Shown here: piece after piece, positions 79-31,009 of the stretch
How the letters are laid out: every line of letters begins with the position of its first letter
Numbering within the stretch: position 1 is the first letter of the stretch
Origin: a virus
Virus record (IMG/VR): IMGVR_UViG_3300042455_002073
Location: 1 to 31,373 of that record
Reading direction: 5' to 3' (one strand)
DNA: 31,373 nucleotides
Notes under the pieces: generated by a model
What the model was told of the DNA's origin: nothing
The model's input: only the letters and a program-made list of their open reading frames with translations
Database searches by the model: none
Program-made: the position numbers and the translations under genes

Positions 79-124
79 AAAACAAATCTAAAAATAATTT
101 TTGTAATAATCAATTTTTTTTTGA

Positions 125-195
125 GCACCAAGAGAATTACGATATCTCGACCTGCGGTTTGGAAAACCGCCGCTCTACCTCTGAGCTATTGGTGC
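125..195 (-). tRNA. tRNA-Gly(TCC)
   Basis: Acceptor stem GCACCAA/TTGGTGC, D-arm GCTC/GAGC, anticodon loop TTTCCAA. The T-loop reads ATCGTAA instead of TTCRANT, and pair 53-61 is T-T. No encoded CCA. The stop codon of the neighbouring endonuclease gene lies inside this tRNA. Confidence 0.85.
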
Positions 196-993
196 ATTTA
201 TTTTAGATATAATATTCAAAATTTCTTTTTCATATTGTTTTTTCAATAAAGGTTTAACATCAAATCTAATAATGTTGTGATATTTTTTTATAATATTTTC
301 TCTAGTAATTTCCTTATTACTATTTTTATCATGCCATTGTTCACCGTCTATTTCAACCACTAAATTTATTGATGGGAAATAAAAATCAACATAATATTTC
401 TCAACAGGATATTGAGTAAAAAAATCATAATCTTTAATTAAATTATTACTTGTTAAAAATTCCCTAAAAAATCTTTCAGGATATGTTTCATTTATCTTAG
501 AACATCTCCTATTTGGATGACTTTCAGGATTATTTTTATACCTCTCAATTATCTTACTTCTTATTTTTTCTTTTACTATTTCTGAATTATAAGAACATTT
601 TTTTGAACAATATATATGATGACTTTTTTTAACTTTTTTCCCACAATTTAAACATTCTTTTCTTTCTTTTAAAACACAATTTTTCAAATTTGAGTTTTTA
701 ATTTTTTTCTTAGTTTCTTCAGACAAAATTCTTTTTCTGTTATTGAAAGACACTCCGCAGCTTCTACCACAAAATTTCCTATCATCTGAAACATGACTTT
801 CAAAAATTTGATGACAATTTAAACATTCTTTTTTTATTTTAGTTTCTTCTTTAGATTTTTTAAAACCTAATCTTAAACATCTACTTGTTACTGAACGATA
901 AGTGGTATTCAGTATTTCACTAATTTCTTTGTAATTTTTTTTGTTATTCAATAGTTCTAATAACAAATTATCTTTTTCATTGTTCCATTTCAT
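175..993 (-). CDS. Free-standing Vsr/DUF559-like homing endonuclease with two zinc fingers
   Basis: 272 aa. Residues about 1-45 look like a helix-turn-helix of the kind found at the start of phage homing endonucleases. Two Cys4 zinc-finger-like clusters follow (C57, C60, C75, C79 and C114, C117, C129, C133). The C-terminal part (about 170-250) has the Vsr/DUF559 nuclease pattern: E173, D203 in YVDFYF, then VVEIDGEQWH with E214, D216 and H221. That is a PD-(D/E)xK-like fold used by Vsr-type homing enzymes. The gene sits between two tRNA-Gly genes and its last seven codons overlap tRNA-Gly(TCC), so the present C-terminus (NAPIAQR) is tRNA sequence read as protein. Expected role: cutting tRNA-cluster DNA of related phages lacking the gene, promoting its own spread. 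An intron location is not supported because both flanking tRNAs are intact. Confidence 0.85.
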   Translation of the reverse strand: MKWNNEKDNLLLELLNNKKNYKEISEILNTTYRSVTSRCLRLGFKKSKEETKIKKECLNCHQIFESHVSDDRKFCGRSCGVSFNNRKRILSEETKKKIKNSNLKNCVLKERKECLNCGKKVKKSHHIYCSKKCSYNSEIVKEKIRSKIIERYKNNPESHPNRRCSKINETYPERFFREFLTSNNLIKDYDFFTQYPVEKYYVDFYFPSINLVVEIDGEQWHDKNSNKEITRENIIKKYHNIIRFDVKPLLKKQYEKEILNIISKINAPIAQR

Positions 994-1058
994 ATATTAT
1001 AAATATATGTAAAAAGAGTAAAAGTTAATAATCGAACTATGTTTTTACTTAAAATTGA

Positions 1059-1130
1059 GCGGATGGCCGAGTATGATTCGGCAACCCCTACCTTGGCAAG
1101 GTAGTGCTCTACCAATTGAGCTACATCCGC
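1059..1130 (-). tRNA. tRNA-Gly(GCC)
   Basis: Acceptor GCGGATG/CATCCGC, D-arm GCTC/GAGC, anticodon stem CTACC/GGTAG with loop TTGCCAA. The T-stem GCCGA/TCGGC is perfect but the loop is ATCATAC, with A54 and T58 swapped relative to normal tRNAs, as in tRNA-Gly(TCC). No encoded CCA. Confidence 0.88.
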
Positions 1131-1136
1131 AAAAAC

Positions 1137-1216
1137 AAGATGGGTCGTGGACTTGTATACCACTTTTGTCCCCCTTTAATTAAATCACTAACCCTGGGTG
1201 TAGGAAAACTCATCTT
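1137..1216 (-). ncRNA. Structured tRNA-like element of unknown identity
   Basis: This 80-nt spacer between tRNA-Gly(GCC) and tRNA-Ala is closed by AAGATG/CATCTT and has a GTGG/CCAC hairpin (1147-1163) where a T-arm would lie, plus a weak inner stem near 1188-1203. No convincing anticodon arm is visible. It could be a decayed tRNA or a stable RNA like the unassigned species of the T4 tRNA cluster. Confidence 0.3.
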
Positions 1217-1219
1217 TAG

Positions 1220-1293
1220 TGGAGAGTTAGGGAATTGAACCCTACTCACGATGATTGCAAATCATTGTCGCCAGCCTTGGTACATGACCCCCC
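1220..1293 (-). tRNA. tRNA-Ala(TGC)
   Basis: Acceptor GGGGGGT/ACTCTCC includes G3:U70, the alanine identity pair, plus a second G-U pair. Anticodon loop TTTGCAA, T-loop TTCAATT. The D-arm is weak and one anticodon-stem pair is mismatched. An offset reading would give GCA (Cys), but G3:U70 and the separate tRNA-Cys argue for Ala. Confidence 0.72.
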
Positions 1294-1304
1294 ATTTATT
1301 TGTG

Positions 1305-1376
1305 TTGCGGTAAGTGGGTTCGAACCACTGACCTTGAGATTATGAGACTCACGAGCTACCACCGCTCTATCCCACA
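1305..1376 (-). tRNA. tRNA-Met(CAT) or tRNA-Ile2(CAT)
   Basis: Acceptor TGTGGGA/TACCGCA with one mismatch, anticodon loop CTCATAA, T-arm AGTGG/CCACT with loop TTCGAAC. T1-A72 is paired, so it does not look like an initiator. A second CAT tRNA lies at 4956; one may carry lysidine and read AUA. Confidence 0.8.
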
Positions 1377-1381
1377 ATTTG

Positions 1382-1454
1382 CGGCTCCAACGGGATTCGA
1401 ACCCGTACCACGCACCGTGACAGGGTGGTATTGTGACCATTCAACCATAGAGCC
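1382..1454 (-). tRNA. tRNA-Asp(GTC)
   Basis: Acceptor GGCTCTA/TGGAGCC with discriminator G73, as expected for Asp. Anticodon loop CTGTCAC, T-loop TTCGAAT. First gene of array 1, about 14 nt downstream of a -7 box. Confidence 0.88.
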
Positions 1455-1467
1455 GTCTTTAATAATA

Positions 1468-1499
1468 CAAATATACAACCAATATGTCAAAGAACCAAA
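1468..1499 (-). promoter_or_regulatory. Bacteroidota-type promoter of tRNA array 1
   Basis: On the minus strand TTTG, 20 nt, then TATATTTG, a full match to the Bacteroidota TTTG-N19/20-TAnnTTTG consensus. Transcription would start about 10 nt before tRNA-Asp. The spacer contains the GTTCTTTGACATATTGG motif shared with array 3. Confidence 0.7.
1477..1495 (-). promoter_or_regulatory. boxA-like element, copy 1
   Basis: A 19-bp stretch identical to 5119-5137, in both cases just upstream of the first tRNA of an array. On the minus strand it contains GTTCTTTGACA, resembling the rrn antitermination boxA (GCTCTTTAACA). Here it overlaps a promoter spacer, so it is transcribed only by readthrough from upstream. 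Confidence 0.4.
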
Positions 1500-1510
1500 T
1501 TTTTTAAAAC

Positions 1511-1546
1511 AAAAAACCCATCTTTTTTTAGGAGATGGGTTTTTAC
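1511..1546 (-). terminator. Intrinsic terminator in the array 1 leader
   Basis: Inverted repeat AAAACCCATCT/AGATGGGTTTT followed by T residues on either strand. It separates the leader RNA from the boxA-like element and tRNA-Asp. Confidence 0.7.
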
Positions 1547-1676
1547 ATTTTATATGTTAATGTCTACTTTACATAATACCATTTCCTACCGAGTAGCTTA
1601 AATCCGCTTCAGTCCCGCCTAAAAGTGTTATTATGTTTAAAGTTTTCACCTGTTTTAACTATTTTAGAATAAATAT
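1545..1676 (-). ncRNA. Leader RNA candidate upstream of tRNA array 1
   Basis: Positions 1455-1790 hold no gene. Minus-strand transcription would give an RNA with outer stem ACATAATA/TATTATGT (1571-1578 with 1629-1636), an inner CTAC/GTAG hairpin (1586-1596), a conserved TATATGTTA stretch and then the terminator. The leader of array 3 has the same order of elements. A weak -7 box (AAACTTTG, 1679-1686) lies upstream. Family unknown. Confidence 0.4.
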
Positions 1677-1740
1677 ATCAAAGTTTTGAAAAGTTTCAAG
1701 TCCCTCAGATAATTTTTTTATTTTATACCTCTGTCGCAAA

Positions 1741-1779
1741 GGGGAAACGGGTCACCAACACCTATATACCCGTCCCCCC
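1741..1779 (-). terminator. GC-rich hairpin downstream of the 1790-2176 gene
   Basis: Inverted repeat GGGG..ACGGGT/ACCCGT..CCCC starting about 10 nt after the stop codon of the unknown gene. Stable in an AT-rich background but without a strong T-run, so it may end or protect the mRNA. Confidence 0.5.
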
Positions 1780-1789
1780 AAATACAACT

Positions 1790-2176
1790 TTAATTCATTA
1801 CATACGCATTACATGCCCAAGTCTTAGCATTTACCGCTTTATATTGGTCTTGATTGTAAAGATTGGTATTTAAAAATGCACTATTGATATCACCAACCTT
1901 TACGTTTTTCAATATCTCCTCATCAATCAATATGATGTTTTTACCCTTCATGGCGAAAACCGTTAACCAGTTATTTGACCCCTCAGGTTTGAACTCAATG
2001 GTTTGAAGTGCTCCTTTTTTGAATCCGTTGAATACAGACATTACGTCTTTCCAATATTCATTTTCTACTGTTGTGTGAAAACCCGCTTTCACTTTTACAA
2101 TCGCTCTGAAATTACCAGAACGACCATTGATGAAATTTGCAGTGTGTAATCCCGAGATGTTGATGATGTTTGACAT
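1790..2176 (-). CDS. Unknown protein, 128 aa
   Basis: Starts MSNIINISGLHTANFING and ends ACNAYVMN. No signal peptide, membrane segment or recognised motif. The mix of short hydrophobic stretches, Gly and Asn suggests a small beta-rich soluble protein. It has its own host-type promoter overlapping the end of the upstream gene, with a 5' leader of about 20 nt, and a stable hairpin after the stop codon, so it is probably a one-gene transcript. Coding support: full ORF, ATG start, promoter at the right distance, no better competing frame. Function not assigned. Confidence 0.75.
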   Translation of the reverse strand: MSNIINISGLHTANFINGRSGNFRAIVKVKAGFHTTVENEYWKDVMSVFNGFKKGALQTIEFKPEGSNNWLTVFAMKGKNIILIDEEILKNVKVGDINSAFLNTNLYNQDQYKAVNAKTWACNAYVMN

Positions 2177-2197
2177 AGTTCGTTTGTTTTAGTAGGA

Positions 2198-2227
2198 CAA
2201 ATATACTACTTTTTTTTGGATTTCAAA
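2198..2227 (-). promoter_or_regulatory. Promoter for the 1790-2176 gene
   Basis: Minus strand TTTG-N18-TATATTTG, ending 21 nt before the ATG at 2176. It overlaps the last codons of the upstream metallopeptidase-like gene. Confidence 0.65.
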
Positions 2228-2610
2228 AACTTTTTCCAAATTATTTTTTTGTGTTCACTCGCAACCCGTCTAGCCTCAATCTCAAAAGGATGATTATTAT
2301 ACCCATACTCCTCAAGTAATGACATGTATTTAGTTCTACAAGGTTGTAAAGAATGAGTGTATTCGTGAACAAATGTTTCAATAAATTTACATATGTCCTT
2401 GGTGTTTTTATAATAAACCCTTATTTCATTTATACATGGTCTGTATTCACCAAAATTTATAGTATTCTCCTCATCTGTTATTACGATGCTAAGTCCTCTC
2501 TTTTTTCTTGAGTTATAACCAAAAACATCCATACAGTATTGCAAAGCAAACTTAATGATTTGGAGTCTTTGTCTTCTTGTTAACTTATTGACAGATGAAT
2601 TTATCCTCAT
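2206..2610 (-). CDS. HExxH gluzincin-like metallopeptidase, small
   Basis: 134 aa. It carries HEYTH (H82, E83, H86) and, about 25 residues later, FEIEARR with E112 as the likely third zinc ligand, the usual gluzincin layout. The N-terminus is basic and there is no signal peptide, so it would act in the cytoplasm or virion. The family is close in style to small phage and Bacteroidota SprT/DUF-type zincins but is not named here. The promoter -7 box TATCTTTG ends 4 nt before the ATG, so the mRNA is probably leaderless. It is one of four HExxH proteins in the window, with little similarity between them outside the motif. Confidence 0.75.
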   Translation of the reverse strand: MRINSSVNKLTRRQRLQIIKFALQYCMDVFGYNSRKKRGLSIVITDEENTINFGEYRPCINEIRVYYKNTKDICKFIETFVHEYTHSLQPCRTKYMSLLEEYGYNNHPFEIEARRVASEHKKIIWKKFLKSKKK

Positions 2611-2614
2611 GATG

Positions 2615-2646
2615 CAAAGATATATTCTTTTTTTGAATCTGCCAAA
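2615..2646 (-). promoter_or_regulatory. Promoter, leaderless type, for the 2206-2610 gene
   Basis: Minus strand TTTG-N20-TATCTTTG, then 4 nt, then ATG at 2610. Transcription would begin at or next to the start codon. Confidence 0.75.
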
Positions 2647-2662
2647 TTATTGGTGAGAAAAA

Positions 2663-2731
2663 TTTACAAGTCTTAGGAGTCCTATTATTCTCTTCTTTAT
2701 CCTTCGAGATGGGGAGGGATGGACTTGTAAA
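2663..2731 (-). ncRNA. Structured element closed by a perfect 10-bp stem
   Basis: TTTACAAGTC (2663-2672) pairs with GACTTGTAAA (2722-2731); inside are ATCC/GGAT and AGG/CCT hairpins. It lies directly after tRNA-Asn in array 2. Not a standard tRNA; it could be a processing structure, a terminator or a small stable RNA. Confidence 0.35.
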
Positions 2732-2736
2732 ATTAG

Positions 2737-2821
2737 CTGACAGGATGGGACTCGAACCCATGATGGAGTTTTAACTCGTTTGGTTAACAGCCAAATGCTC
2801 TCGCCGCTGAGCGACCTGCCA
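2737..2821 (-). tRNA. tRNA-Asn(GTT) with a long variable arm
   Basis: Acceptor TGGCAGG/CCTGTCA with G73, D-arm GCTC/GAGC, anticodon stem TTTGG/CCAAA with loop CTGTTAA, T-arm ATGGG/CCCAT. Between the anticodon and T stems are 17 nt forming a GAGT/ACTC hairpin, a class II variable arm not expected for Asn. Confidence 0.85.
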
Positions 2822-2828
2822 ATTTTAG

Positions 2829-2901
2829 CATAGGTGACAGGATTCGAACCTGTGACATTTCTTTTGGAGAGAAATATGATAAACCACTTCACCACACCTA
2901 C
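2829..2901 (-). tRNA. tRNA-Trp(CCA)
   Basis: Acceptor GTAGGTG/CACCTAT, discriminator G73, anticodon stem TTTCT/AGAAA with loop CTCCAAA, T-arm ACAGG/CCTGT with loop TTCGAAT. Starts 3 nt after the stop codon of the 2904-3125 gene, so probably processed from a shared transcript. Confidence 0.88.
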
Positions 2902-2903
2902 AT

Positions 2904-3125
2904 TTACTTCCATTGAGTTTTACGATTATACTTCCAAGTTCTAAACATCCTAACCTGATACTTGAATAACCTCTTATTTGGGTTTTTAAACCCTTTTCTA
3001 TATTTAGGATACTCAACAATACCATCATCCCAATACATAGGATATTCGTAGTTTAAAAGTACTATAAAATACTCTCTGCTGTTTGTTGCTTTGTTCAGTT
3101 TTGCTCTGTTTCTGTGTTTTGACAT
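2904..3125 (-). CDS. Unknown small basic protein, 73 aa
   Basis: Starts MSKHRNRAKLNK and ends TWKYNRKTQWK; rich in Arg, Lys, Tyr and Trp, with a very basic C-terminus that could bind nucleic acid. No known motif. It lies between the 3156-3842 metallopeptidase-like gene and tRNA-Trp with short spacings, so protein genes and tRNAs appear to share one transcript starting from the promoter at 3862-3893. Two other frames over this segment are antisense or tRNA shadows. The regular amino-acid content and fit to the operon support it as real. Confidence 0.65.
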   Translation of the reverse strand: MSKHRNRAKLNKATNSREYFIVLLNYEYPMYWDDGIVEYPKYRKGFKNPNKRLFKYQVRMFRTWKYNRKTQWK

Positions 3126-3155
3126 ATCTATTGGTTTTAAACCTAATAGAAGTCC

Positions 3156-3842
3156 TTACTTTTTTTCATAATTTTTAAATTTTAAAAAGTTCTTTTTAAA
3201 TGTTTTCTTCAAGATTATTGATGATTCTTTCCATGTTGAATGAGGTACCGTTGATAAATAAGCTTGAATCTCATCATCAATTATACTTTTAATATCAACA
3301 TATCCCATTTTAACCAATTCTTTATTTAAATAGTTATAAGTTTTTGTGGGAATTGTTTTAATAATCTCATTCACTTCCAACTTATATTCAGGATTTGTAT
3401 AATATAATCCGTGAGCAATTTCGTGGTCCATAACATCGGAACTTAATTTATCAGCACCAATTAAATAGAACTTTTCATTTTTAGAATGTTTATCACAACA
3501 AGAAATAATATCTGCCATAACATCATCATATAAATTATTAGTTTTAAAAAAAACTTTCTGACCTTTTTTTAGAACATCGGATGGAATATTATAACCCGCC
3601 CAATCTGCAGGATATGTGAACATTCCTGATTTATTTTTCTTAACATATGTCCTCATAAGTTCTTCCAAAGTAAATTCTTTATTTCTAATCTCAGGAAATG
3701 GTGACTCATAAAATTCTTGATATCTGCAGAACAACATACCTCTATCATAATCGTTTTTAACAATAACGGCATATATGTGGGGCATAATTTTATTAATTGA
3801 ACCTGACACCACTTTTGACTTAAAAGATTTTAATTTTTTCAT
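3156..3842 (-). CDS. HExxH metallopeptidase-like protein, 228 aa
   Basis: HEIAH at residues 140-144 (MDHEIAHGLYYTNPEYK) and DDEIQAYL with E191 about 47 residues later give the two His and third Glu ligand of a gluzincin. The N-terminal 130 residues match nothing I recognise. No signal peptide or membrane segment. Proteins of this layout occur in large phages as unnamed metallopeptidases, but substrate and role are unknown. It has a clean host-type promoter and a leader of about 20 nt, and heads the transcript that continues into the small basic protein, tRNA-Trp and tRNA-Asn. Confidence 0.75.
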   Translation of the reverse strand: MKKLKSFKSKVVSGSINKIMPHIYAVIVKNDYDRGMLFCRYQEFYESPFPEIRNKEFTLEELMRTYVKKNKSGMFTYPADWAGYNIPSDVLKKGQKVFFKTNNLYDDVMADIISCCDKHSKNEKFYLIGADKLSSDVMDHEIAHGLYYTNPEYKLEVNEIIKTIPTKTYNYLNKELVKMGYVDIKSIIDDEIQAYLSTVPHSTWKESSIILKKTFKKNFLKFKNYEKK

Positions 3843-3861
3843 AATTTATTTATTTCTGAAA

Positions 3862-3893
3862 CAAAGATATCTTTTTTTTCTTGATTTACCAAA
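3862..3893 (-). promoter_or_regulatory. Promoter for the 3156-3842 gene and tRNA array 2
   Basis: Minus strand TTTG-N20-TATCTTTG, 19 nt before the ATG at 3842. Full match to the Bacteroidota consensus. Confidence 0.75.
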
Positions 3894-3904
3894 CATTTTT
3901 TTTG

Positions 3905-3978
3905 AGTCCAAAGTTGGGTTCGAACCAACGAATACTTGTTTTGCAGACAAGCCCCTTAAACCACTTGGGTATTTGGAC
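3905..3978 (-). tRNA. tRNA-Cys(GCA)
   Basis: Acceptor GTCCAAA/TTTGGAC, discriminator U73 as expected for Cys, anticodon stem CTTGT/ACAAG with loop CTGCAAA, T-arm GTTGG/CCAAC. Confidence 0.92.
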
Positions 3979-3985
3979 ATTTTAG

Positions 3986-4071
3986 TGACGCAAGTGGGAC
4001 TCGAACCCACAACGGCATTACGCTCCCTTCGCATTAAAAGTGCGAAGCTCTACCAATTGAGCTATTGCGTC
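3986..4071 (-). tRNA. tRNA-Lys(TTT) with an enlarged variable region
   Basis: Acceptor GACGCAA/TTGCGTC, D-arm GCTC/GAGC, anticodon stem TCGCA/TGCGA with loop CTTTTAA, T-arm GTGGG/CCCAC with loop TTCGAGT. The variable region is 18 nt, far longer than normal for Lys, and forms only a weak stem. Confidence 0.87.
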
Positions 4072-4077
4072 ATTTTG

Positions 4078-4152
4078 TCGTCTCGGATGGACTTGAACCA
4101 TCGACTTTCATCGTATCAGGATGACACTCTAATCCAACTGAGTTACGAGACG
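4078..4152 (-). tRNA. tRNA-Ile(GAT)
   Basis: Acceptor CGTCTCG/CGAGACG, A73, anticodon stem TCATC/GATGA with loop CTGATAC, T-arm GATGG/CCATC with loop TTCAAGT. Confidence 0.92.
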
Positions 4153-4157
4153 AATTG

Positions 4158-4233
4158 TAGAGTAGACAGGACTTGAACCTGCAATAATGTCCTTGTCCCA
4201 AACAAGGCGACTTACCAATTAGTCTACTACTCT
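4158..4233 (-). tRNA. tRNA-Pro(TGG)
   Basis: Acceptor AGAGTAG/CTACTCT, A73, anticodon stem CCTTG/CAAGG with loop TTTGGGA, T-arm loop TTCAAGT. Confidence 0.92.
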
Positions 4234-4245
4234 ATATATTTTTTG

Positions 4246-4333
4246 CTGAGAGAAGTGGAATCGAACCACGCCCAACTTAATGGGTTATTGTTTAGCAAAC
4301 AATCGGGGACACCATTTCCCTCCTTTACTCTCA
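4246..4333 (-). tRNA. tRNA-Ser(GCT)
   Basis: Class II tRNA: anticodon stem ATTGT/ACAAT with loop TTGCTAA, long variable arm CCCA/TGGG, T-arm GTGG/CCAC with loop TTCGATT, G73. The 5' end is uncertain by one base because the acceptor stem has a mismatch. Confidence 0.85.
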
Positions 4334-4339
4334 ATTTAT

Positions 4340-4355
4340 CCCGACCTAGCTCGGG
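4340..4355 (-). repeat. Hairpin in the tRNA spacer
   Basis: CCCGA/TCGGG stem with a 6-nt loop in the 41-nt gap between tRNA-Ser(GCT) and tRNA-Arg(ACG). Possibly a processing signal. Confidence 0.4.
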
Positions 4356-4374
4356 AACACACATCGGATGTTTG

Positions 4375-4447
4375 TAGTCTCCTTGGGATTTGAACCCAAA
4401 CTTTATCATCCGTAGTGATAGGTGCTTATCCATTACACCAAGAGACC
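4375..4447 (-). tRNA. tRNA-Arg(ACG)
   Basis: Acceptor GGTCTCT/GGAGACT, A73, anticodon stem TATCA/TGATA with loop CTACGGA, T-arm TTGGG/CCCAA. A34 would need conversion to inosine by host TadA to read all CGN codons it covers. Confidence 0.88.
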
Positions 4448-4452
4448 ATTCG

Positions 4453-4535
4453 CGGAAGCGAAGGGAATTGAACCCCCAAAGCTGTTACACCCGACTGTTT
4501 TCAAGACAGTTTCCTCGTCCATTCGGACCACTTCC
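4453..4535 (-). tRNA. tRNA-Ser(TGA)
   Basis: Class II tRNA: acceptor GGAAGTG/CGCTTCC, G73, anticodon stem ACTGT/ACAGT with loop CTTGAAA, long variable arm, T-loop TTCAATT. Confidence 0.9.
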
Positions 4536-4542
4536 ATTGTTG

Positions 4543-4624
4543 TCGGAGTAGGAGGACTCGAACCTCCGAACTCTAATGAGGGCTGATTTACAGTCAGCTG
4601 CAATTGCCACTATGCGATACTCCG
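4543..4624 (-). tRNA. tRNA-Tyr(GTA)
   Basis: Acceptor CGGAGTA/TACTCCG, A73, anticodon stem GCTGA/TCAGC with loop CTGTAAA, class II variable arm as normal for Tyr, T-arm GGAGG/CCTCC. Confidence 0.92.
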
Positions 4625-4631
4625 ATTTTGG

Positions 4632-4707
4632 GGTGTTGTACGAGATTCGAACTCGTGACCTGATGAACCACAATCATCCGCTCTAAACCAACTGAGCTAA
4701 CAACACC
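4632..4707 (-). tRNA. tRNA-His(GTG)
   Basis: Acceptor GTGTTGT/ACAACAC with the extra G-1 opposite C73 that marks tRNA-His, anticodon stem GATGA/TCATC with loop TTGTGGT, T-arm ACGAG/CTCGT. Confidence 0.92.
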
Positions 4708-4712
4708 ATATA

Positions 4713-4766
4713 AACCCCCCATTTACCAGATTATCGGACTGGTTGCCATATTGGGAGTGGGGGATT
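4713..4766 (-). ncRNA. Structured spacer RNA candidate between tRNA-His and tRNA-Phe
   Basis: Outer 9-bp stem AATCCCCCA/TGGGGGGTT (one G-U) encloses an ACCAG/CTGGT hairpin with a 9-nt loop. A CCTG/CAGG hairpin follows at 4768-4781. Not a tRNA; unknown. Confidence 0.35.
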
Positions 4767-4787
4767 TCCTGTTTATTCAGGACTCCG

Positions 4788-4862
4788 TGGTGAGGGTGAG
4801 AATCGAACTCACATCACTCGCTCTTCAGACGAGCGCGAACTGACCAACTGCGCTACCTCACC
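4788..4862 (-). tRNA. tRNA-Phe(GAA)
   Basis: Acceptor GGTGAGG/CCTCACC, A73, T-arm GTGAG/CTCAC. Anticodon stem CTCGT/GCGAG with loop CTGAAGA gives GAA. Shifting the stem by two would give CTG (Gln), but that reading breaks the D-stem. Confidence 0.82.
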
Positions 4863-4872
4863 AATTATAATG

Positions 4873-4946
4873 TAGTCCCCCCATGAATCGAACACGGGAC
4901 TTATTGTTTGTAAAACAATCACTCTAAACCACTGAGCTAGGGGACC
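4873..4946 (-). tRNA. tRNA-Val(TAC)
   Basis: Acceptor GGTCCCC/GGGGACT, A73, anticodon stem ATTGT/ACAAT with loop TTTACAA, T-loop TTCGATT. Confidence 0.92.
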
Positions 4947-4955
4947 GAATTTATG

Positions 4956-5027
4956 TAGTGATGGGAGGAATTGAACCTCCGACCTCTTGGATATGAATCA
5001 AGGGTTCTTCCACTGAACTACATCACT
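4956..5027 (-). tRNA. tRNA with CAT anticodon (Met, or Ile2 if lysidinylated)
   Basis: Acceptor AGTGATG/CATCACT, A73, D-arm GTTC/GAAC, anticodon loop TTCATAT, T-arm GGAGG/CCTCC. A1-T72 is paired, so an initiator is unlikely. Confidence 0.85.
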
Positions 5028-5032
5028 ATCTG

Positions 5033-5103
5033 TTGTCGGTGATGGGTTCGAACCACCATCATTTCTTCCAAAGAGAAATATCCTGCCATTAGACGAACCG
5101 ACA
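5033..5103 (-). tRNA. tRNA-Gln(TTG)
   Basis: Acceptor TGTCGGT/ACCGACA with weak T1-A72 typical of Gln, anticodon stem TTTCT/AGAAA with loop CTTTGGA, T-loop TTCGAAC. First tRNA of array 3. Confidence 0.9.
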
Positions 5104-5118
5104 ATTTATAAATTTTCA

Positions 5119-5137
5119 AACCAATATGTCAAAGAAC
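5119..5137 (-). promoter_or_regulatory. boxA-like element, copy 2
   Basis: Identical over 19 bp to 1477-1495. On the minus strand it contains AGTTCTTTGACATATTGG, 3' of a terminator and about 15 nt before tRNA-Gln. Here no -7 box follows, so the motif would be in the transcript, consistent with an antitermination signal. Confidence 0.45.
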
Positions 5138-5143
5138 TAAAAC

Positions 5144-5180
5144 AAAAAACCCCGAACTTTTTACGGTTCGGGGTTTTTTT
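5144..5180 (-). terminator. Intrinsic terminator in the array 3 leader
   Basis: CCCCGAAC/GTTCGGGG stem flanked by A and T runs, so it can act on either strand. It lies between the leader RNA and the boxA-like element. Confidence 0.8.
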
Positions 5181-5327
5181 TTACAATTATATGTTATTAT
5201 CTAAATCTCACGATTTTACCGAACCAATAAATAACATACGGGGATACCAACAGTTACTAAACTGCGATTTCACGACTTGGATATTATGTTTATTAATTCG
5301 TTTCATTTTATTATATTTTAATAAGTA
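5180..5327 (-). ncRNA. Leader RNA candidate upstream of tRNA array 3
   Basis: The 5104-5379 interval has no gene but a strong promoter, then an RNA of about 150 nt with outer stem AACATA/TATGTT (5233-5238 with 5285-5290), a CAGTT/AACTG hairpin (5251-5264), an AAATC/GATTT hairpin with a GTGA loop (5203-5216), a TATATGTTA stretch and a terminator. Same element order as 1545-1676. Could be a small RNA or an attenuator. Confidence 0.5.
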
Positions 5328-5330
5328 TTA

Positions 5331-5362
5331 CAAAGTTAGTAAAAGTTTCTGTATTTGTCAAA
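5331..5362 (-). promoter_or_regulatory. Promoter of the array 3 leader
   Basis: Minus strand TTTG-N20-TAACTTTG, full consensus match, about 150 nt upstream of the terminator and 230 nt upstream of tRNA-Gln. Confidence 0.75.
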
Positions 5363-6779: not shown

Positions 6780-6799
6780 AAGAATGTACAATATTTTAG

Positions 6800-6872
6800 T
6801 AGTCCTATCAAGATTCGAACTTGAATTTTAGCTTTAGAAGAGCCGCGTGTTAATCCATTACACTATAAGACC
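6800..6872 (-). tRNA. tRNA-Arg(TCT), solitary
   Basis: Acceptor GGTCTTA/TAGGACT with two G-U pairs, A73, D-arm GTGT/ACAC, anticodon loop CTTCTAA, T-arm TCAAG/CTTGA with loop TTCGAAT. Lies alone between two small protein genes. Reads AGA, a codon expected to be frequent in this AT-rich genome. Confidence 0.9.
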
Positions 6873-18089: not shown

Positions 18090-18539
18090 ATGGAATTACT
18101 AAGTACGTTTATTTGTAAAAACAGTGAACTTGGAGTTCACGGCAACATGTTTGGCGGAGCAATGTTAGCGCTAATTGATGAAACCGCAGCTGCATACGCT
18201 TCTCAAGTTTGTGATACTCCCAAAGTGGTCACAATAAAAATTGAAGAGTTAATATTCAAAAGTCCTGTAAAGTTGGGAAACTTGTTAAAAGTATATGGTA
18301 AAGTTTTGAAATTTGGAAGAACTTCTTTAACTTTATACATTGAAGTTAGAAAACATAATGTACACACAGGATTACAAGATGTTGTTACTCACACAAACAT
18401 AACTTTTGTTAAAATTGATGATGATGGAAATTCAATACCTATTTCTGATAGAGTAAAAGTTCGTTACCACGAACGTGTAAAGATATATGGTAAAGGATTA
18501 TTAACACCTGAAGAATTAGAAAAAGAAAGGAAAAAATAA
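18090..18539 (+). CDS. Hotdog-fold acyl-CoA thioesterase (YciA-like)
   Basis: 149 aa, usual length for the family. The N-terminal block HGNMFGGAMLALIDETAAAYA is the hotdog active-site helix of acyl-CoA hydrolases (NxxGxxFGGxMLxLID, catalytic Asp in LIDE). VVTIKIEELIFKSPVKLGNLLKVYGKV supplies the following strands. The C-terminus is charged. Hydrolyses acyl-CoA to free acid and CoA; cytoplasmic. An unusual cargo for a phage, perhaps changing lipid or CoA pools. Host-type near-leaderless promoter, and the IMPDH/GMPR-like gene starts 3 nt after its stop codon, so the two form a metabolic operon. Confidence 0.88.
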   Translation: MELLSTFICKNSELGVHGNMFGGAMLALIDETAAAYASQVCDTPKVVTIKIEELIFKSPVKLGNLLKVYGKVLKFGRTSLTLYIEVRKHNVHTGLQDVVTHTNITFVKIDDDGNSIPISDRVKVRYHERVKIYGKGLLTPEELEKERKK

Positions 18540-18542
18540 GAT

Positions 18543-19574
18543 ATGAACAGAAAATTTGATTTCAAAGACATCACACTTGTTCCGGAAGTGTTAAGTTCTA
18601 TTTATAGTAGAACAAGTTGTTCGATTTTGAACGACAAAGGAACTTTACCTATTATGGTATCACCAATGGATACTGTTGTTAGTGAAGAAAATTATGAATT
18701 ATTTATAAATCAAGGATTTGATGTTTGTTTACCAAGATGTGAATATTCAGATTCAAAAAATATTTTCATTTCAATATCGTTAGATGAATTTGAGGAATAC
18801 ATCACTTATTTTGATGATTTTGAAGTAGATAAATCACCTAAAAGAATATTGGTAGATATTGCGAATGGTCATATGAAGAAACTTTATGATTTGTCCAAAA
18901 CTTTTTTGTCCAAAACTAAAGGTACTAATTATGAATTAATGGTTGGTAATATTGCAAATCCTAAAACATATCAAAAATTCGCAGAAATAGGTGTTCATTA
19001 TATAAGAGTGGGTATTGGCGGAGGTAGTGGTTGCTTAACATCGGCAAATACAGGTATTCACTATCCTATGGCATCACTAATTAATGAATGTTTTGTCATT
19101 AAAAAACAAAATGGATATCAAACTAAAATAGTTGCTGACGGAGGTTTCAGAAACTATGACGATATTATTAAAGCATTAGCGTTAGGTGCTGATTATGTAA
19201 TGTTGGGTGGAGTATTAAATAAAACATTAGAATCATCTTCAGAAACTGAATTGTTTAAATTATTTCCAATTTCAGAAAACACATCTATTTATTTGTGGAA
19301 CGAGTTCCCATTTTTGAGAAAGCACTTTTACAAGAAATTCAGGGGTATGAGTACCAAAGAAGTACAGAAAAAATGGGGAAAAAGTAAATTAACAACATCT
19401 GAAGGAATTACAAAGTATAATAAAGTTGAATATACATTATCTTCTTGGACTGAAAATTTAAAAGATTATTTACGTTCAGCGATGTCATACACAAATTCAA
19501 CAACTTTAGAAGAATTTAAAGAATCTGAACATGTTTTTATTAGTCAAAACGCACTTAATAGATTTCATAAGTAA
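18543..19574 (+). CDS. IMP dehydrogenase / GMP reductase family enzyme
   Basis: 343 aa, the length of a GMP reductase; there are no CBS domains. TIM-barrel landmarks: FDFKDITLVPE at the start, SPMDTVVSE (40-48), catalytic loop VGIGGGSGCLTSANTGIHYP with C164, VADGGFRNYDDIIKALALGADYVMLGG (197-223), and FRGMSTKEVQKKWG as the flap-like region. The loop normally reads GIGPGSxCTT; here it is GGSGCLTS, so specificity is uncertain. Reaction: NADPH-dependent GMP to IMP, or IMP to XMP. Likely adjusts purine nucleotide pools during phage DNA replication. Second gene of the operon with the thioesterase. Confidence 0.85.
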   Translation: MNRKFDFKDITLVPEVLSSIYSRTSCSILNDKGTLPIMVSPMDTVVSEENYELFINQGFDVCLPRCEYSDSKNIFISISLDEFEEYITYFDDFEVDKSPKRILVDIANGHMKKLYDLSKTFLSKTKGTNYELMVGNIANPKTYQKFAEIGVHYIRVGIGGGSGCLTSANTGIHYPMASLINECFVIKKQNGYQTKIVADGGFRNYDDIIKALALGADYVMLGGVLNKTLESSSETELFKLFPISENTSIYLWNEFPFLRKHFYKKFRGMSTKEVQKKWGKSKLTTSEGITKYNKVEYTLSSWTENLKDYLRSAMSYTNSTTLEEFKESEHVFISQNALNRFHK

Positions 19575-25574: not shown

Positions 25575-27434
25575 TTAATTTTTATTAACTTCCTCAAATT
25601 CGACATCTGAACCATCAAAACCCGTATCTGTCGTTGTTTGATTATAAAGGTCTTGACTAATTTTTTGGAACTTCAAGTTAATTTCATCTAGTTTTGTTCG
25701 GATAGATTCAATATCCCTACCACTTATTGATTTTTTTAATTCTTCAATACCATTTACAACCTCACTTTTTTGTTCCTCGGACAATTTATCGTCCAAGTCT
25801 TTTAATGATTTTTCCATTTGAAATACTGTTGAATCGGCAGTATTGATTAACTCAGCTTCTTCTTTGAATTTCTTATCCGATTCTGCATTCAACTCAGCAT
25901 CTTTTTTCATTTTTTCAATATCTTCTTTTGAAAGTCCTGAAGATGACTCAATTCTAATTTCTTGTTTTTTATTAGTCCCTTTATCAAGTGCCGAAACTTG
26001 AATAATACCATTTGCATCAATATCAAATGTAACTTCAATTTGTGGAATACCTCTCATTGAAGGGGGAATACCATCTAAATGGAATCGACCAATTGTTTTA
26101 TTGTCTTTTGCCATACTTCTTTCTCCTTGGAGAACGTGAATTTCAACTGATGGTTGGTTATCTACTGCGGTAGAGAAAACTTGAGATTTTTTAGTTGGGA
26201 TTGTGGTATTTGATTCAATTAATTTTGTAAATACACCACCCATAGTTTCAATTCCTAATGATAAAGGAGTAACATCAAGTAACAATACATCTTTTACATC
26301 ACCACCCAATACACCACCTTGAATCGCGGCACCTAATGCCACAACCTCATCAGGATTTACACCTTTTGAAGGTTCTTTTCCGAAATATTTTTTAACCGCT
26401 TCCTGAATTGCGGGAATACGTGTTGAACCTCCAACCAAAATAATTTCATCAATTTGGTCAGGATTTAATTTTGCATTTCTTAATGCCGATTTACAAGGTT
26501 CAATTGTTCTTTCAACCAATTTTTCAATTAATTGTTCAAACTTAGCTTTAGTCAAATTTCTAACCAAATGTTTTGGTACACCATCCACCGGCATTAAATA
26601 AGGTAAATTAATCTCAGTTGATGGAGTTGATGACAATTCAATTTTAGCCTTCTCAGAGGATTCTTTTAATCGTTGTAGCGCCATTGAATCTTTTGACACA
26701 TCAACGCCATTTTCATCTTTAAATTCTTTCACCAACCAATCAATAATCACCTGGTCGAAGTCATCACCACCAAGATGTGTATCACCATCAGTTGATAATA
26801 CTTCAAATACACCATCACCCAATTCTAATACAGATACGTCATGTGTGCCACCACCACAGTCGAACACAACAACAATCATATCTTTATCTTTTTTATCTAA
26901 CCCATACGCTAATGCCGCAGCGGTTGGTTCATTAATAATTCGTCTAACATTTAGACCTGCAATTTCACCTGCTTCTTTTGTTGCCTGTCTTTGAGCATCA
27001 TTAAAATACGCAGGAACTGTAATAACCGCATCAGTCACAGTTTCACCTAAATAATCTTCAGCGGTTTGTTTCATTTTTTGTAGTACCGCAGCAGATATCT
27101 CCTGTGGTGTAAATGTTCTACCATCAATATCCACTCTTGGTGTGTCATTATCACCCTTAACTACTTTATAAGGAACTCTACCAACCTCATTGATTGATTC
27201 TGAATACTTAGACCCCATAAATCGTTTTATGGAATAAACCGTTTTTGTTGGATTCGTGACCGCTTGTCGTTTAGCAGAGTCACCTACTTTTCTTTCACCA
27301 TCTTTAATGAATCCTACGATAGATGGAGTTGTTCTTTTGCCTTCATTATTTGTAATTACAGTAGGTCCACTACTTTCCATAACTGCAACACATGAATTTG
27401 TGGTACCTAAATCCACGCCTATTATTTTTCCCAT
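25575..27434 (-). CDS. dnaK: DnaK, Hsp70 chaperone, full length
   Basis: 619 aa, close to the bacterial length. The N-terminal ATPase domain begins [17 protein letters not shown] and has [52 protein letters not shown] and [13 protein letters not shown]. The substrate-binding domain follows the [16 protein letters not shown] linker and includes [23 protein letters not shown]. It ends with an acidic tail [12 protein letters not shown] in place of the host-type EEVK end. One oddity: [14 protein letters not shown] has Cys and His where bacterial DnaK usually has Leu and Phe. No grpE or dnaJ is seen nearby, so it would use host co-chaperones. Convergent transcription units flank it; no CIRCE element upstream. 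DnaK is rare on phage genomes. Confidence 0.97.
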
Positions 27435-27564
27435 GTTTTTAATTTTTTTTGTTTAGTTTATTTTTTTTAAATTTAGTTAATTTATTTTATGGAATCAAGT
27501 CCGAAACAAATATTGTTAAAAACCATACCAAATTAATAATACAGACATTTTGTCATTAAATTTG

Positions 27565-27594
27565 AAAAAATGTCAGATTAATATGACATTTTTT
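27565..27594. promoter_or_regulatory. Inverted repeat between dnaK and the 27633 gene
   Basis: AAAAAATGTCA/TGACATTTTTT, 11-bp arms and an 8-nt spacer, in the 198-bp divergent intergenic region. A further TGTCA lies at 27551-27555. Could be an operator for either gene; a terminator role is possible but no gene ends here. Confidence 0.5.
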
Positions 27595-27597
27595 CAT

Positions 27598-27628
27598 TTT
27601 GATTTTTATTTTTTTATTTGTAACTTTG
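27598..27628 (+). promoter_or_regulatory. Bacteroidota-type promoter, leaderless type
   Basis: TTTG-N19-TAACTTTG, 4 nt, ATG at 27633. The -33 motif starts 4 nt after the inverted repeat. Confidence 0.75.
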
Positions 27629-27632
27629 TGAA

Positions 27633-27824
27633 ATGGATAATAAGAAAAAAAATACTAATATTGCACCCTTAACAAAGTGGGAGGTGATATACGAAGATGA
27701 AAATACCTTGGATATTTGGAGATATGATATCAAAGTAAGTCGTATTAATCCATATGAGGTTGAAATACTATATAAAAATGATAAGAATGACAGAGCAAAA
27801 ATTGCAAGAATGAACAAAAAGTGA
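27633..27824 (+). CDS. Unknown small basic protein, 63 aa
   Basis: Starts MDNKKKNTNIAPLTKWEVIYEDENTL. Three short beta strands (WEVIYED, IWRYDIKVSR, YEVEILYK) between Lys-rich ends, no cysteines, no membrane segment. No family recognised. Full host-type promoter with a leaderless start, and an inverted repeat just upstream that may control it, so probably an early gene. The ADP-ribosyltransferase candidate follows after 13 nt behind its own TATTTAT element. Confidence 0.7.
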   Translation: MDNKKKNTNIAPLTKWEVIYEDENTLDIWRYDIKVSRINPYEVEILYKNDKNDRAKIARMNKK

Positions 27825-27831
27825 TATTTAT
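27825..27831 (+). promoter_or_regulatory. TATTTAT late-type element
   Basis: GATATTTATCATA, 6 nt before the ATG at 27838 and 12 nt before the in-frame ATG at 27844. Overlaps the end of the 27633 gene. Confidence 0.45.
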
Positions 27832-27837
27832 CATAAT

Positions 27838-28263
27838 ATGAAAATGATTTCTGTTCTTGGTCAACGAATCGATAAACAATATTTGTTATCAAAACTATAT
27901 GAAATGGGTTTTGATGAAGAAAGTGCTGAAGATGAATTAGAGTACTTGATTGATTATTTATATGAACTACCTGACCTTATTGATTTATATAGAATAATCT
28001 CTGTCGATAATAAAAAAGATATTGATATAAAAAAACCGGGCTCACATTACTCAACATCAAAAAAAGATTTATTAAAATCTTACTCTTTTTGTACAGGTTG
28101 TGGTGATGAAATCTATCTACTAACAGTAGAATCACCAAAAGAATTGATTGATATATCACAAACTTTGGCAAATAGGATACTTTATCCAAATGAACAAGAG
28201 ATAACCTTAAAAAATAAAGGTAGTGGGGTTAACACGGTCTCAATTAAAAAAATCAAACGTTAG
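27838..28263 (+). CDS. ADP-ribosyltransferase candidate (R-S-E class)
   Basis: 141 aa (139 if it starts at the ATG at 27844). The R-S-E triad of arginine-type mono-ADP-ribosyltransferases can be placed: R52 in DLYRIISVD, S72-T73-S74 in GSHYSTSKKDLL, and an ExE turn E119-Q120-E121 in YPNEQEITL. The order and spacing of about 20 and 47 residues fit a minimal ART fold. The N-terminal 45 residues are helical. T4 carries three such enzymes (Alt, ModA, ModB) that modify host RNA polymerase and other proteins. Here the gene has a late-type element, so the enzyme may be packaged or act late. No leader of the [I/L]xE type is seen. Target unknown. Confidence 0.6.
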   Translation: MKMISVLGQRIDKQYLLSKLYEMGFDEESAEDELEYLIDYLYELPDLIDLYRIISVDNKKDIDIKKPGSHYSTSKKDLLKSYSFCTGCGDEIYLLTVESPKELIDISQTLANRILYPNEQEITLKNKGSGVNTVSIKKIKR

Positions 28264-28265
28264 AA

Positions 28266-28940
28266 TTAATTTTCTTTTGATGCGTATTTTACACCCATAA
28301 TAGTTCCGATAATACTAAATGCGTTGGTTAATAAAATACCAAGCATGTTTGACCATGTTGACCCAATAATCTGAGTGTCTTTGTTCATATATAAAGAAAT
28401 CATATACATGATTGTTGTAATCACCCCAACAGTTATAATAACACCTAAAGAAACTTTAACGATAACACTAATCAATTCTGTTTGACTTTTTTTCTGTAAC
28501 AAATCCAAATCATTCATCGCAACATGTTTTGCATTTTCAGCCTCAATACGTGCTTGTTCTGATTTAATCATTGATTCTCGTAACTCCTGACCAATTCTTT
28601 GGTTGTCTTCTTTCCAAGAGGTTAGTTCTCGGTTTTGTAATTCAATCTGAGATTTGGATTCCTCAACACTCGTTAAAGTGTTTTGTAATTCAGTCATTAT
28701 TCTTTGATTCTCTAAGTTTAATTCAGAAAGTTCTTTATTTTGGATTTGGACTTGTTTTGTTATTTCTAATCTTCTTCTTCTTATTTCTTTATCTTTTGAA
28801 ATACAGAAATCAAGATACTCTTTGAATTCAATATTATCATCAGCGTCAATTACTTTAGCAATATTACCCTCAAGGGCGATATTTTTTGACTTATTTAAAT
28901 CAATTAATTGTTGTTGACTATTTTTATCAAATACTATCAT
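28266..28940 (-). CDS. Coiled-coil membrane protein of the signalling operon
   Basis: 224 aa. Residues about 45-150 are highly charged with heptad repeats (RRRRLEITKQVQIQNKELSELNLENQ), predicted coiled coil. A hydrophobic segment at about 155-183 and another at 199-219 (GILLTNAFSIIGTIMGV) would anchor it with a short C-terminal tail (KYASKEN). No catalytic motif. Its ATG overlaps the stop codon of the receiver gene (ATGA), making it the third gene of the kinase-receiver operon. It may be an output or scaffold partner of the lone receiver. Other phage proteins with this layout are not known to me. Confidence 0.75.
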   Translation of the reverse strand: MIVFDKNSQQQLIDLNKSKNIALEGNIAKVIDADDNIEFKEYLDFCISKDKEIRRRRLEITKQVQIQNKELSELNLENQRIMTELQNTLTSVEESKSQIELQNRELTSWKEDNQRIGQELRESMIKSEQARIEAENAKHVAMNDLDLLQKKSQTELISVIVKVSLGVIITVGVITTIMYMISLYMNKDTQIIGSTWSNMLGILLTNAFSIIGTIMGVKYASKEN

Positions 28941-29371
28941 TTATATATTTTAAATGGTGCGGTTCTATTTTTGTAACTTTCGTAATCTTGTCTAAACTCA
29001 TCTAACCTTGGTTCAATGTCATCCGATTTTATAATCCAAAATTGAGCACCCGCCTGTAGAGCTTTTGCTTGTTCTTCAGGTTCATCTGAAGATGAAATAA
29101 TCCCAATAACTACATTGTTCCCGTATTCAAAATTTATTTTTCTTATTAACTCAATACCATCAAAGGAAGAACCAATAATATTTAAATCAACGAATACACA
29201 TTCAGGTCTATCACTATTATCCCCAGTTAACCATCGTTTAAATAGTTTCGCCGCTTCATCCGAACTGTTTAAAGATTTTAGTGAAAGACTAATATCCAAT
29301 AACGAACACGCATCTTCGAATACTAAATGGAATAAATCTTCATCATCCACTAATAAAATTGAATCAATCAT
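28937..29371 (-). CDS. Stand-alone response regulator receiver
   Basis: 144 aa, receiver domain only. Acidic pair D9-D10 in LLVDDEDLF, phosphoacceptor D62 in VFVDLNIIGSSFDGIEL, S94 in GIISSSDEPEE (Thr/Ser position) and K115 in WIIKSDD. All catalytic positions are present. There is no DNA-binding or enzymatic output domain, so it would act by protein contact, in the manner of CheY or Spo0F. Lies 12 nt after the kinase gene and overlaps the coiled-coil membrane gene by 4 nt. Confidence 0.88.
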   Translation of the reverse strand: MIDSILLVDDEDLFHLVFEDACSLLDISLSLKSLNSSDEAAKLFKRWLTGDNSDRPECVFVDLNIIGSSFDGIELIRKINFEYGNNVVIGIISSSDEPEEQAKALQAGAQFWIIKSDDIEPRLDEFRQDYESYKNRTAPFKIYK

Positions 29372-29383
29372 TTTTTTGTTTTT

Positions 29384-31009
29384 TTACTTTTTTATGTTTA
29401 TTTTAATTTTAGTTCCGACTTCATTTTTTTCACAGGTAATTTTAAACCCATGTTCTTCCAAAATTGCAACACAAATATTCAACCCCAATCCACTACCTGA
29501 TTCTTTTTGACCTTCTTTTCTTGTGTAAGGTTTTGATAAATGGTCAAAGTCTTCTTGAGTAATTCCTCTACCATTGTCTTGGATATATATGGATTCTTCA
29601 TCTGAATATATTTTAACAAATTTGGTTTCTGAGTCATTATATTTTAACCCATTTCTGATTAAATTGTCCACTGCGGTGCAGAATAGAGCTTCGTTAACAT
29701 CAATAGTTGGTAAATCTTCGATAATCACCTGACTAATATATGCAGTTGATGACAAGTAATCGTTTAAAATAGTTTTTAAATTACATTCTGTTTTATTTAA
29801 AACAACGTCTTTCTTAACTAAATTAGTAAACTCATACACTCCTTTATAAACTTTTTGAGAATGTTTTAAACCTTCTTTAATCATTTTAAGAGGTGATTCA
29901 ATCTTTAATGATTCGATATCTTCAGGTTTTAATCTACGTTCTAAAGAATTAAGTCCTCTTGGCATGTAAGTATTAATCCCTGAGTGCATATCGTGTCTTA
30001 ATATTTTGGCGGCATGTTCTAAATACGTATTTTTCTTTTCAATCTCTTTCTTTTGTTCATAAGAATTGGTGATGTCTGTTGCGATTTTCATAACACGATA
30101 AATCTTACCATCAGTACCAATAATAGGATTGTAAGTTGCCTGTAAATAAACTAACGACCCATCTTTTTTGACTCTAACAATTTCACCTGAAAACAATACG
30201 CCCTCATTTAATTTTTCCCAAAAAATACGATATTCATCGCTTTTTGAATACTCTTCATCTATAAAAATTCTATGATGTTTTCCAGATATCTTATCTTGTA
30301 AAGAATAACCCATAGTATTTAAAAACAATTCATTAGCGAAAATAATGTTTCCTTGTAAATCGAACTCAATAACCGCATTAGATTTATTTATGGCGTTCAT
30401 TCTATTACGAATCTCCGCTTCTTTTTTCTTTAATTCGGTAACGTCTTGTCTAATTGATGAAAACCCTACCAACTTATTATTTTTATCAAATTTTGCTTTA
30501 ATGTATGTATCAACATAATACAATTCACCTGATTTTGTTTTATTGGTAACAACATCATTCCATATTTCACCGTTCATTACCGTCTTATACATCTTACCCC
30601 AATAACCGTCAGGTTGTAATCCCGAATTAACGATAATATGGTCCTTACCTATTACTTCATCTAATGACCATCCAGAAACTTCCTCAAATTTTTTATTAAC
30701 ATACGTTATTTTACCGTTTTTATCTGCAACTGAAACAATTGCTGCAGTATCAATAAACTCCTCACTCTCTTTTATTGTTTTTAATAAATCACTTTTTAGT
30801 TCAGCGGTTTGTGATTTCATTAAAAAATAAAATATTGGTATAAATAAAACTATACAAAGGTATTCAACAATACGAGTTAATTGAGTTGGTTCAAACATTC
30901 CAATTAATATTGCGGTTTTAAGGATAAAAAAAACCGACATAATGATGATTGAAAAAAGTAAATAGTGTTTTGATTCTTTATTCATATTCATAAATACTTC
31001 TTTATTCAT
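29384..31009 (-). CDS. Membrane sensor histidine kinase with two PAS domains
   Basis: 541 aa from the ATG at 31009; ATGs at residues 7 and 9 are alternatives. Membrane helices at about 17-38 and 47-64 with almost no periplasmic loop, so sensing is probably cytoplasmic or intramembrane. PAS 1 about 80-195 (IVSVADKNGKITYVNKKFEEVSG), PAS 2 about 205-315 (EFDLQGNIIFANELFL). Dimerisation helix with phosphoacceptor H339 in ILRHDMHSG. Kinase domain with N box N449 (DNLIRNGLKYN), G1 DNGRG (478-482) and G2 GSGLGL (505-510). All motifs are intact, so it should be active. Followed by a lone receiver and a coiled-coil membrane protein. Histidine kinases are rare in phages. Confidence 0.92.
   Translation of the reverse strand: MNKEVFMNMNKESKHYLLFSIIIMSVFFILKTAILIGMFEPTQLTRIVEYLCIVLFIPIFYFLMKSQTAELKSDLLKTIKESEEFIDTAAIVSVADKNGKITYVNKKFEEVSGWSLDEVIGKDHIIVNSGLQPDGYWGKMYKTVMNGEIWNDVVTNKTKSGELYYVDTYIKAKFDKNNKLVGFSSIRQDVTELKKKEAEIRNRMNAINKSNAVIEFDLQGNIIFANELFLNTMGYSLQDKISGKHHRIFIDEEYSKSDEYRIFWEKLNEGVLFSGEIVRVKKDGSLVYLQATYNPIIGTDGKIYRVMKIATDITNSYEQKKEIEKKNTYLEHAAKILRHDMHSGINTYMPRGLNSLERRLKPEDIESLKIESPLKMIKEGLKHSQKVYKGVYEFTNLVKKDVVLNKTECNLKTILNDYLSSTAYISQVIIEDLPTIDVNEALFCTAVDNLIRNGLKYNDSETKFVKIYSDEESIYIQDNGRGITQEDFDHLSKPYTRKEGQKESGSGLGLNICVAILEEHGFKITCEKNEVGTKIKINIKK

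Follow-up and report, generated by a model that had tools for sequence, protein, structure and literature searches.

The viral record IMGVR_UViG_3300042455_002073 of IMG/VR, from a Bacteroidota phage, was analysed over its 31,373 nucleotides (nt), referred to here as the window, with the focus on the leaders that precede two transfer RNA (tRNA) arrays and on how these leaders may control them. The tRNA genes were called with ARAGORN, and both leader modules are read on the minus strand, to which the coordinates of the modules and arrays refer. Array 3 (2736..5103) comprises genes for Gln, Met, Val, Phe, His, Tyr, Ser(tga), Arg(acg), Pro, Ile(gat), Lys and Cys, then an open reading frame (ORF), then Trp and Asn; array 1 (123..1454) comprises Asp, Met, Ala, Gly(gcc) and Gly(tcc) and continues past the window end. 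Ahead of arrays 3 and 1 the 19-mer GTTCTTTGACATATTGGTT is found exactly at 5119-5137 and 1477-1495, its two matches in the window, against 0.04 expected in shuffled windows even when up to three mismatches are allowed. The tRNAs begin 16-23 nt past these 19-mers. Folding predicts intrinsic terminators at 5144..5179 (terminator 3) and 1511..1544 (terminator 1), and the outer stems of the two copies occupy the same place with different sequences. Both leader folds are more stable than shuffles (z -4.2 and -3.4). A sequence-only reading of this DNA had described the same module order before arrays 1 and 3, and the stems, terminators and identical 19-mers were all found in both copies. That reading had no record of a short ORF, which is present in each leader and covers the stem region.

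Leader ORF 3 (5208..5306, ATG to TGA) would encode the peptide MKRINKHNIQVVKSQFSNCWYPRMLFIGSVKS, and leader ORF 1 (1569..1649, GTG to TAA) the peptide MKTLNIITLLGGTEADLSYSVGNGIM, homologous to MKNLNIILLGGTEADTRFRTEMV of the relative L006. Promoters of the Bacteroidota are built from -33 and -7 elements. A predicted promoter of this type, TTTG-N20-TAACTTTG, matches the consensus ahead of leader 3 (5331..5362), and a promoter-like element common to related leaders, TTG-N19-TATATTTA, lies ahead of leader 1 (1670..1699). Between stop codon and terminator, both linkers contain a TATATGTTA stretch (minus strand AACATATAA; 1550-1560 and 5185-5193).

The module is widespread among viral contigs. The exact 19-mer was present in 62 IMG/VR stretches. 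Of 64 sites, 57 were followed within 251 nt by the start of a same-strand tRNA, mostly at 7-23 nt and in many relatives at only 7-16 nt. The homologues before other tRNA arrays on which the sequence-only reading depended therefore exist. Upstream of the exact 19-mer sites, nearly every case had a short ORF whose end lies 20-32 nt ahead of the terminator. The hypothesis set out below was fixed before three more scans with variant boxA sequences yielded new contigs. A mechanical pipeline then recovered 285 leaders at 325 terminator-plus-array heads, with 168 distinct peptides that were clustered by alignment scores into 57 families. An independent case, reached through a terminator match in INPHARED, is the unrelated 735 kb phage LR756501, which carries the leader KHSKHFSSSSKWF before Trp, His, Phe, Lys and Ser tRNAs. 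A tblastn search of INPHARED with four leader peptides gave no significant match, and neither a terminator nor a boxA was found ahead of the tRNAs in the arrays of crAss001 (Bacteroides) and T5 (E. coli). At the cellular tRNA heads of two Bacteroidota genomes, a closed ORF preceded a terminator in 1 of 23 cases and a boxA core was present in 0 of 23.

All signs suggest that the leaders are translated. Within families, 49% of single-base codon differences were synonymous against an expected 23%, and they fell mostly at third positions. In the leader 3 family, conservation is seen at the peptide level (KHMVxxKSQFxNCWYPR). A closed short ORF was found before 83% of terminators that precede tRNAs, compared with 12% of the remaining terminators of those contigs.

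In each leader the codons form a menu of the tRNAs that its array encodes. Leader 3 holds a codon for 14 of the 14 tRNA species of array 3 (P 0.0004), where phage-gene windows of equal length, drawn at random in frame, covered a mean of 8.6. Within its sensing stretch (codons 2-23, 5238..5303), 21 of 22 codons are read by array 3 tRNAs and all 13 non-Met species are covered (P about 2e-5); combined over ten families by Fisher's method, the sensing-stretch test gave 5e-20. Leader 1 has codons for all five array 1 tRNAs within the window; it contains GGC GGG ACT GAA GCG GAT and also an ATG. It also holds TTA and CTT, and in L518, a near-identical relative, array 1 continues with an unassignable tRNA (ARAGORN anticodon tt), Leu(taa), Met and Leu(tag). 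In the near-identical relative L046, TCG stands in place of the Ala codon GCG of leader 1 (1569-1649) although tRNA-Ala is kept in both arrays, a natural loss of one listed codon.

Over the 57 families, 453 of 483 array species were covered, whereas permuting the leaders among arrays gave 332 +/- 10 (z 11.9). Scored by codon counts, the match to the leader's own array reached z 14.3, with 24 of the 57 leaders ranking their own array first. When stratified by codon box, the presence of a tRNA in the array predicted its codon in the leader with an odds ratio of 14 (p 1.3e-53); this was 12.7 (p 1e-43) in the families found after the hypothesis was fixed and 25 for arrays of eight or fewer species. 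The smallest arrays make the match legible: a Lys and Tyr array follows the leader MTTFRKYYYGKKSYKKYLIRIG... (KYYYGKKSYKK), a Pro, His and Gln array MKNLMNINPQQHPQTLEWGFYA (PQQHPQ), a Ser, Arg and Trp array MKTLPNINWSSSRWSSRKN... and a Leu and Arg array MRTTLLHTLLLDRQGLLRRLMP. In many relatives two arrays share a contig and each array has a leader to itself; in same-contig swaps the own leader covered nearly all array-exclusive tRNAs and the other leader far fewer. Where tRNAs seemed to be uncovered, a second leader and terminator turned up between the array parts. Arrays holding only one of the two codon boxes of an amino acid were used as an isoacceptor test, in which leader codons followed the array box for Arg CGN/AGR (odds ratio 14, p 0.0002) and Ile ATY/ATA (odds ratio 22, p 1e-5); the Ser and Leu boxes leaned the same way but not significantly. 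The leaders match isoacceptors and not merely amino acids.

The end of the leader ORF is also complementary to the terminator. The stop codon lies 17-36 nt from the terminator in 52 of the 57 families, and pairing of the ORF end (segment 2) with the 5' arm of the terminator (segment 3) had a mean z of -2.7 over all families, compared with -0.09 for an ORF-start control; this 2:3 pairing fell below a z of -1.5 in 42 families. In leader 3, segment 2 is the GGTTCGG within the last codons (5219..5225), the predicted antiterminator strand, and segments 3 and 4 are the arms of the terminator. With the 3' arm of the terminator removed in folding, GGUUCGG pairs with CCGAACC (-12.9 kcal/mol, P 0.007). 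Segment 1 (CGAAUUAAUAAA, 5281..5300) is predicted to pair with UUUAUUGGUUCG at the ORF end and thereby to hold segment 2; this stem 1:2 is the outer stem of the sequence-only reading. In leader 1 the corresponding stem is formed in folding by segment 1 (1626..1642) and a 3' side at 1567-1581, and segment 2 is GGAAATGGT (1578..1586), of which relatives carry a perfect form, GGAGATGG. In the Phe family the pairing survives a double change, TCTCGAGG pairing with CCTCGAGA and TCCCGAGG with CCTCGGGA.

The 19-mer past the terminator is a boxA-like element by its match to boxA of the ribosomal RNA (rrn) operons, a resemblance that the sequence-only reading had pointed out. Among cellular genomes 124 exact 19-mer sites were found, none of them before 16S or 23S in the stretches examined and none directly before a tRNA, so the comparison was made directly on 16S leaders. 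Eight Bacteroidota genomes supplied 10 distinct 16S leaders, in which GTTCTTTGACA was matched at best with 1-2 mismatches of 11. These leaders carry the consensus GTTCTTTGAAA or close variants, mostly 115-270 nt ahead of 16S, and the nearest match was GTTCTTTGAAATATTGGAT, in one case. The 19-mer was also considered as part of a sigma-70 promoter (TTGACA-N17-TATTAT). This was rejected for lack of room for a -10 box in the relatives whose tRNA starts 7-16 nt downstream; with a tRNA start as near as 7 nt, the 19-mer is not a -35 box there.

Two further observations concern this element. BoxA cores are repeated inside the long arrays of L011, L041, L048 and L061 with no leader or terminator found nearby, as would be expected of an element that keeps the polymerase going in untranslated RNA. 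A longer motif, GTTCTTTGACATATTGGTTTACACG, recurs upstream of protein genes, often several times per genome, in L065-L184 (Bacteroidales and Chitinophaga genomes). Among ten genes examined, AAA-ATPase_like together with PDDEXK_9, AbiEi, HEPN, AIPR and ATPase_2 domains were seen, and the motif could mark a promoter or antitermination element that defence or mobile genes have in common.

The match of leader codons to the array, combined with the pairing of the ORF end with the terminator, points to a leader-peptide attenuator. We consider it highly probable that the modules are ribosome-mediated transcription attenuators which sense tRNAs rather than amino acids, and that the boxA-like element then protects the untranslated array. 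A ribosome would trail the RNA polymerase through a leader ORF of about 20-44 codons that lists codons for nearly every tRNA species of the array behind it. If all listed codons were read promptly, the ribosome would reach the stop codon and mask segment 2, the 3:4 terminator would form and the array would stay off. If a listed tRNA were missing, uncharged or cut, the ribosome would stall upstream, segment 2 would be freed for 2:3 pairing and the polymerase would enter the array. With no translation, stem 1:2 would hold segment 2 and termination would be the default. Past the terminator, the boxA-like element would load a Nus/S10 antitermination complex, presumably through NusB, so that the untranslated array could be finished. 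The outcome would be an OR gate with the tRNAs of the array as its inputs. The suggestion of the sequence-only reading that the arrays could be controlled by premature termination is retained, but its structured RNA is read mainly as a leader-peptide attenuator with an ORF. A separate small RNA, its other proposal, is not needed, although a terminated leader would still be a short RNA.

In trp-type attenuators, the position of the ribosome chooses between terminator and antiterminator (PMC1183508). The attenuators of amino-acid operons (trpL, hisL, ilvL, thrL) and the phage modules are alike in having a short ORF with regulatory codons, a terminator, a mutually exclusive antiterminator and a nearby stop codon. 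They differ in that trpL-type leaders carry runs of codons for one to three amino acids, whereas the phage leaders list as many as 20 tRNA species and match their isoacceptors, and in that the controlled operon consists of tRNAs, lies in a phage and has a boxA after the terminator. In rrn antitermination by boxA with NusB and S10 (PMC4807359), a boxA sequence likewise lies within an untranslated stable-RNA transcript, but the phage copy sits after a regulated terminator and before phage tRNAs, and its factor binding is predicted. T-box riboswitches also sense tRNA to control read-through of a terminator; however, they act without translation, through RNA pairing with uncharged tRNA, and the phage leaders carry a coding signal. 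No T-box covariance match was found in the window, where only tRNA families reached the Rfam gathering score. Phage tRNAs are reported to rescue translation against tRNA-cutting defences (PMC10264068, PMC11555353, PMC12409363); these papers deal with the same gene products and offer a plausible purpose, and they concern the action of the tRNAs. No mention of leaders or of attenuation of tRNA arrays turned up in a term search of PMC10264068. We found no published description of leader peptides of tRNA arrays in a search that covered preprints and subscription journals thinly. Leader-peptide attenuation itself is already known; its application to tRNA genes by way of a codon menu is, to our knowledge, new.

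The shared architecture would also fit a classical amino-acid attenuator of the trp or his kind, sensing a shortage of charged tRNA with the phage tRNAs as mere output. A lack of charged tRNA from any cause would give stalling, and isoacceptor-dependent codon choice is also known from such attenuators (PMC1183508). However, the leader codons follow the downstream isoacceptors (odds ratios of 14 for Arg and 22 for Ile), and up to 20 species each listed once or a few times would make a poor sensor of amino acids and a good sensor of any missing tRNA; we regard this explanation as unlikely. A non-coding leader would be a structured small RNA that ends at the terminator, an idea of the sequence-only reading, with the array transcribed from a promoter at the 19-mer or through boxA antitermination alone. 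It would agree with the stable folds and with the fit of copy 1 to 11 of 12 sigma-70 positions, but not with the short distance from 19-mer to first tRNA in many relatives or with the rrn boxA match, and no Rfam family was found. It also leaves the coding signal and the codon menu unexplained, two results by which a pure non-coding RNA was ruled out, and this alternative is very unlikely.

The within-family peptide conservation and synonymous excess would equally be expected of small functional phage proteins that lie before the arrays by happenstance. Nevertheless, the composition of the peptides tracks the array over 57 unlike families, KYYYGKKSYKK and PQQHPQ are not protein-like in composition, and the ORF end is complementary to the terminator, which makes such proteins highly improbable. 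That array size and peptide length, or shared descent, would account for the codon-to-array match has next to no probability: by chance a 30-codon ORF does cover about 60% of the tRNAs in a 14-species array, but the in-frame windows of phage genes, family permutation, same-contig swaps, stratified odds ratios and tiny arrays exclude this.

Several points weigh against the tRNA-sensing attenuator. The loci were located through boxA patterns and so are not a random sample, some of the 57 families are likely to be chance ORFs that dilute the signal, and large arrays overlap 30-codon peptides partly by chance, for which the nulls allow. Thirty of the 483 array units have no leader codon. The 2:3 helix of leader 1 is weak (-7.4 kcal/mol, no better than shuffles), and three related leaders, L002, L008 and L037, have no clear 2:3 helix. 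A solitary tRNA-Arg(tct) (6799-6872), upstream of leader 3, has neither leader nor terminator of its own. The mechanism also assumes that transcription and translation are coupled in Bacteroidota.

Elsewhere in the window, a full HSP70/DnaK, a PAS histidine kinase and a response regulator lie near one another (25575-31009), and a thioesterase (4HBT) adjoins an IMPDH/GMP reductase-like gene (18090-19574).

The purpose of phage tRNAs has long been argued, with codon compensation, replacement of degraded host tRNAs and evasion of tRNA-cutting immunity all proposed. Leaders that name precisely the tRNAs under their control suggest that the arrays are induced by decoding failure and make the question directly testable. 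Loss of tRNA would be the most attractive trigger, given the known tRNA-cutting defences and the phage tRNAs that counter them, although starvation or plain tRNA demand would serve too. The finding would extend attenuation from amino-acid operons to tRNA genes and provide a natural library of multi-codon ribosome sensors, and it would make the content and boundaries of an array predictable from a 30-codon peptide. We lean slightly towards the wider view that tRNA arrays are held silent in large Bacteroidota phages, each being induced through its codon-menu leader when decoding by any one of its own tRNAs fails, so that host tRNA-cutting immunity would call up replacement tRNAs and the modules would form a closed-loop, isoacceptor-resolved sensor of translation capacity.

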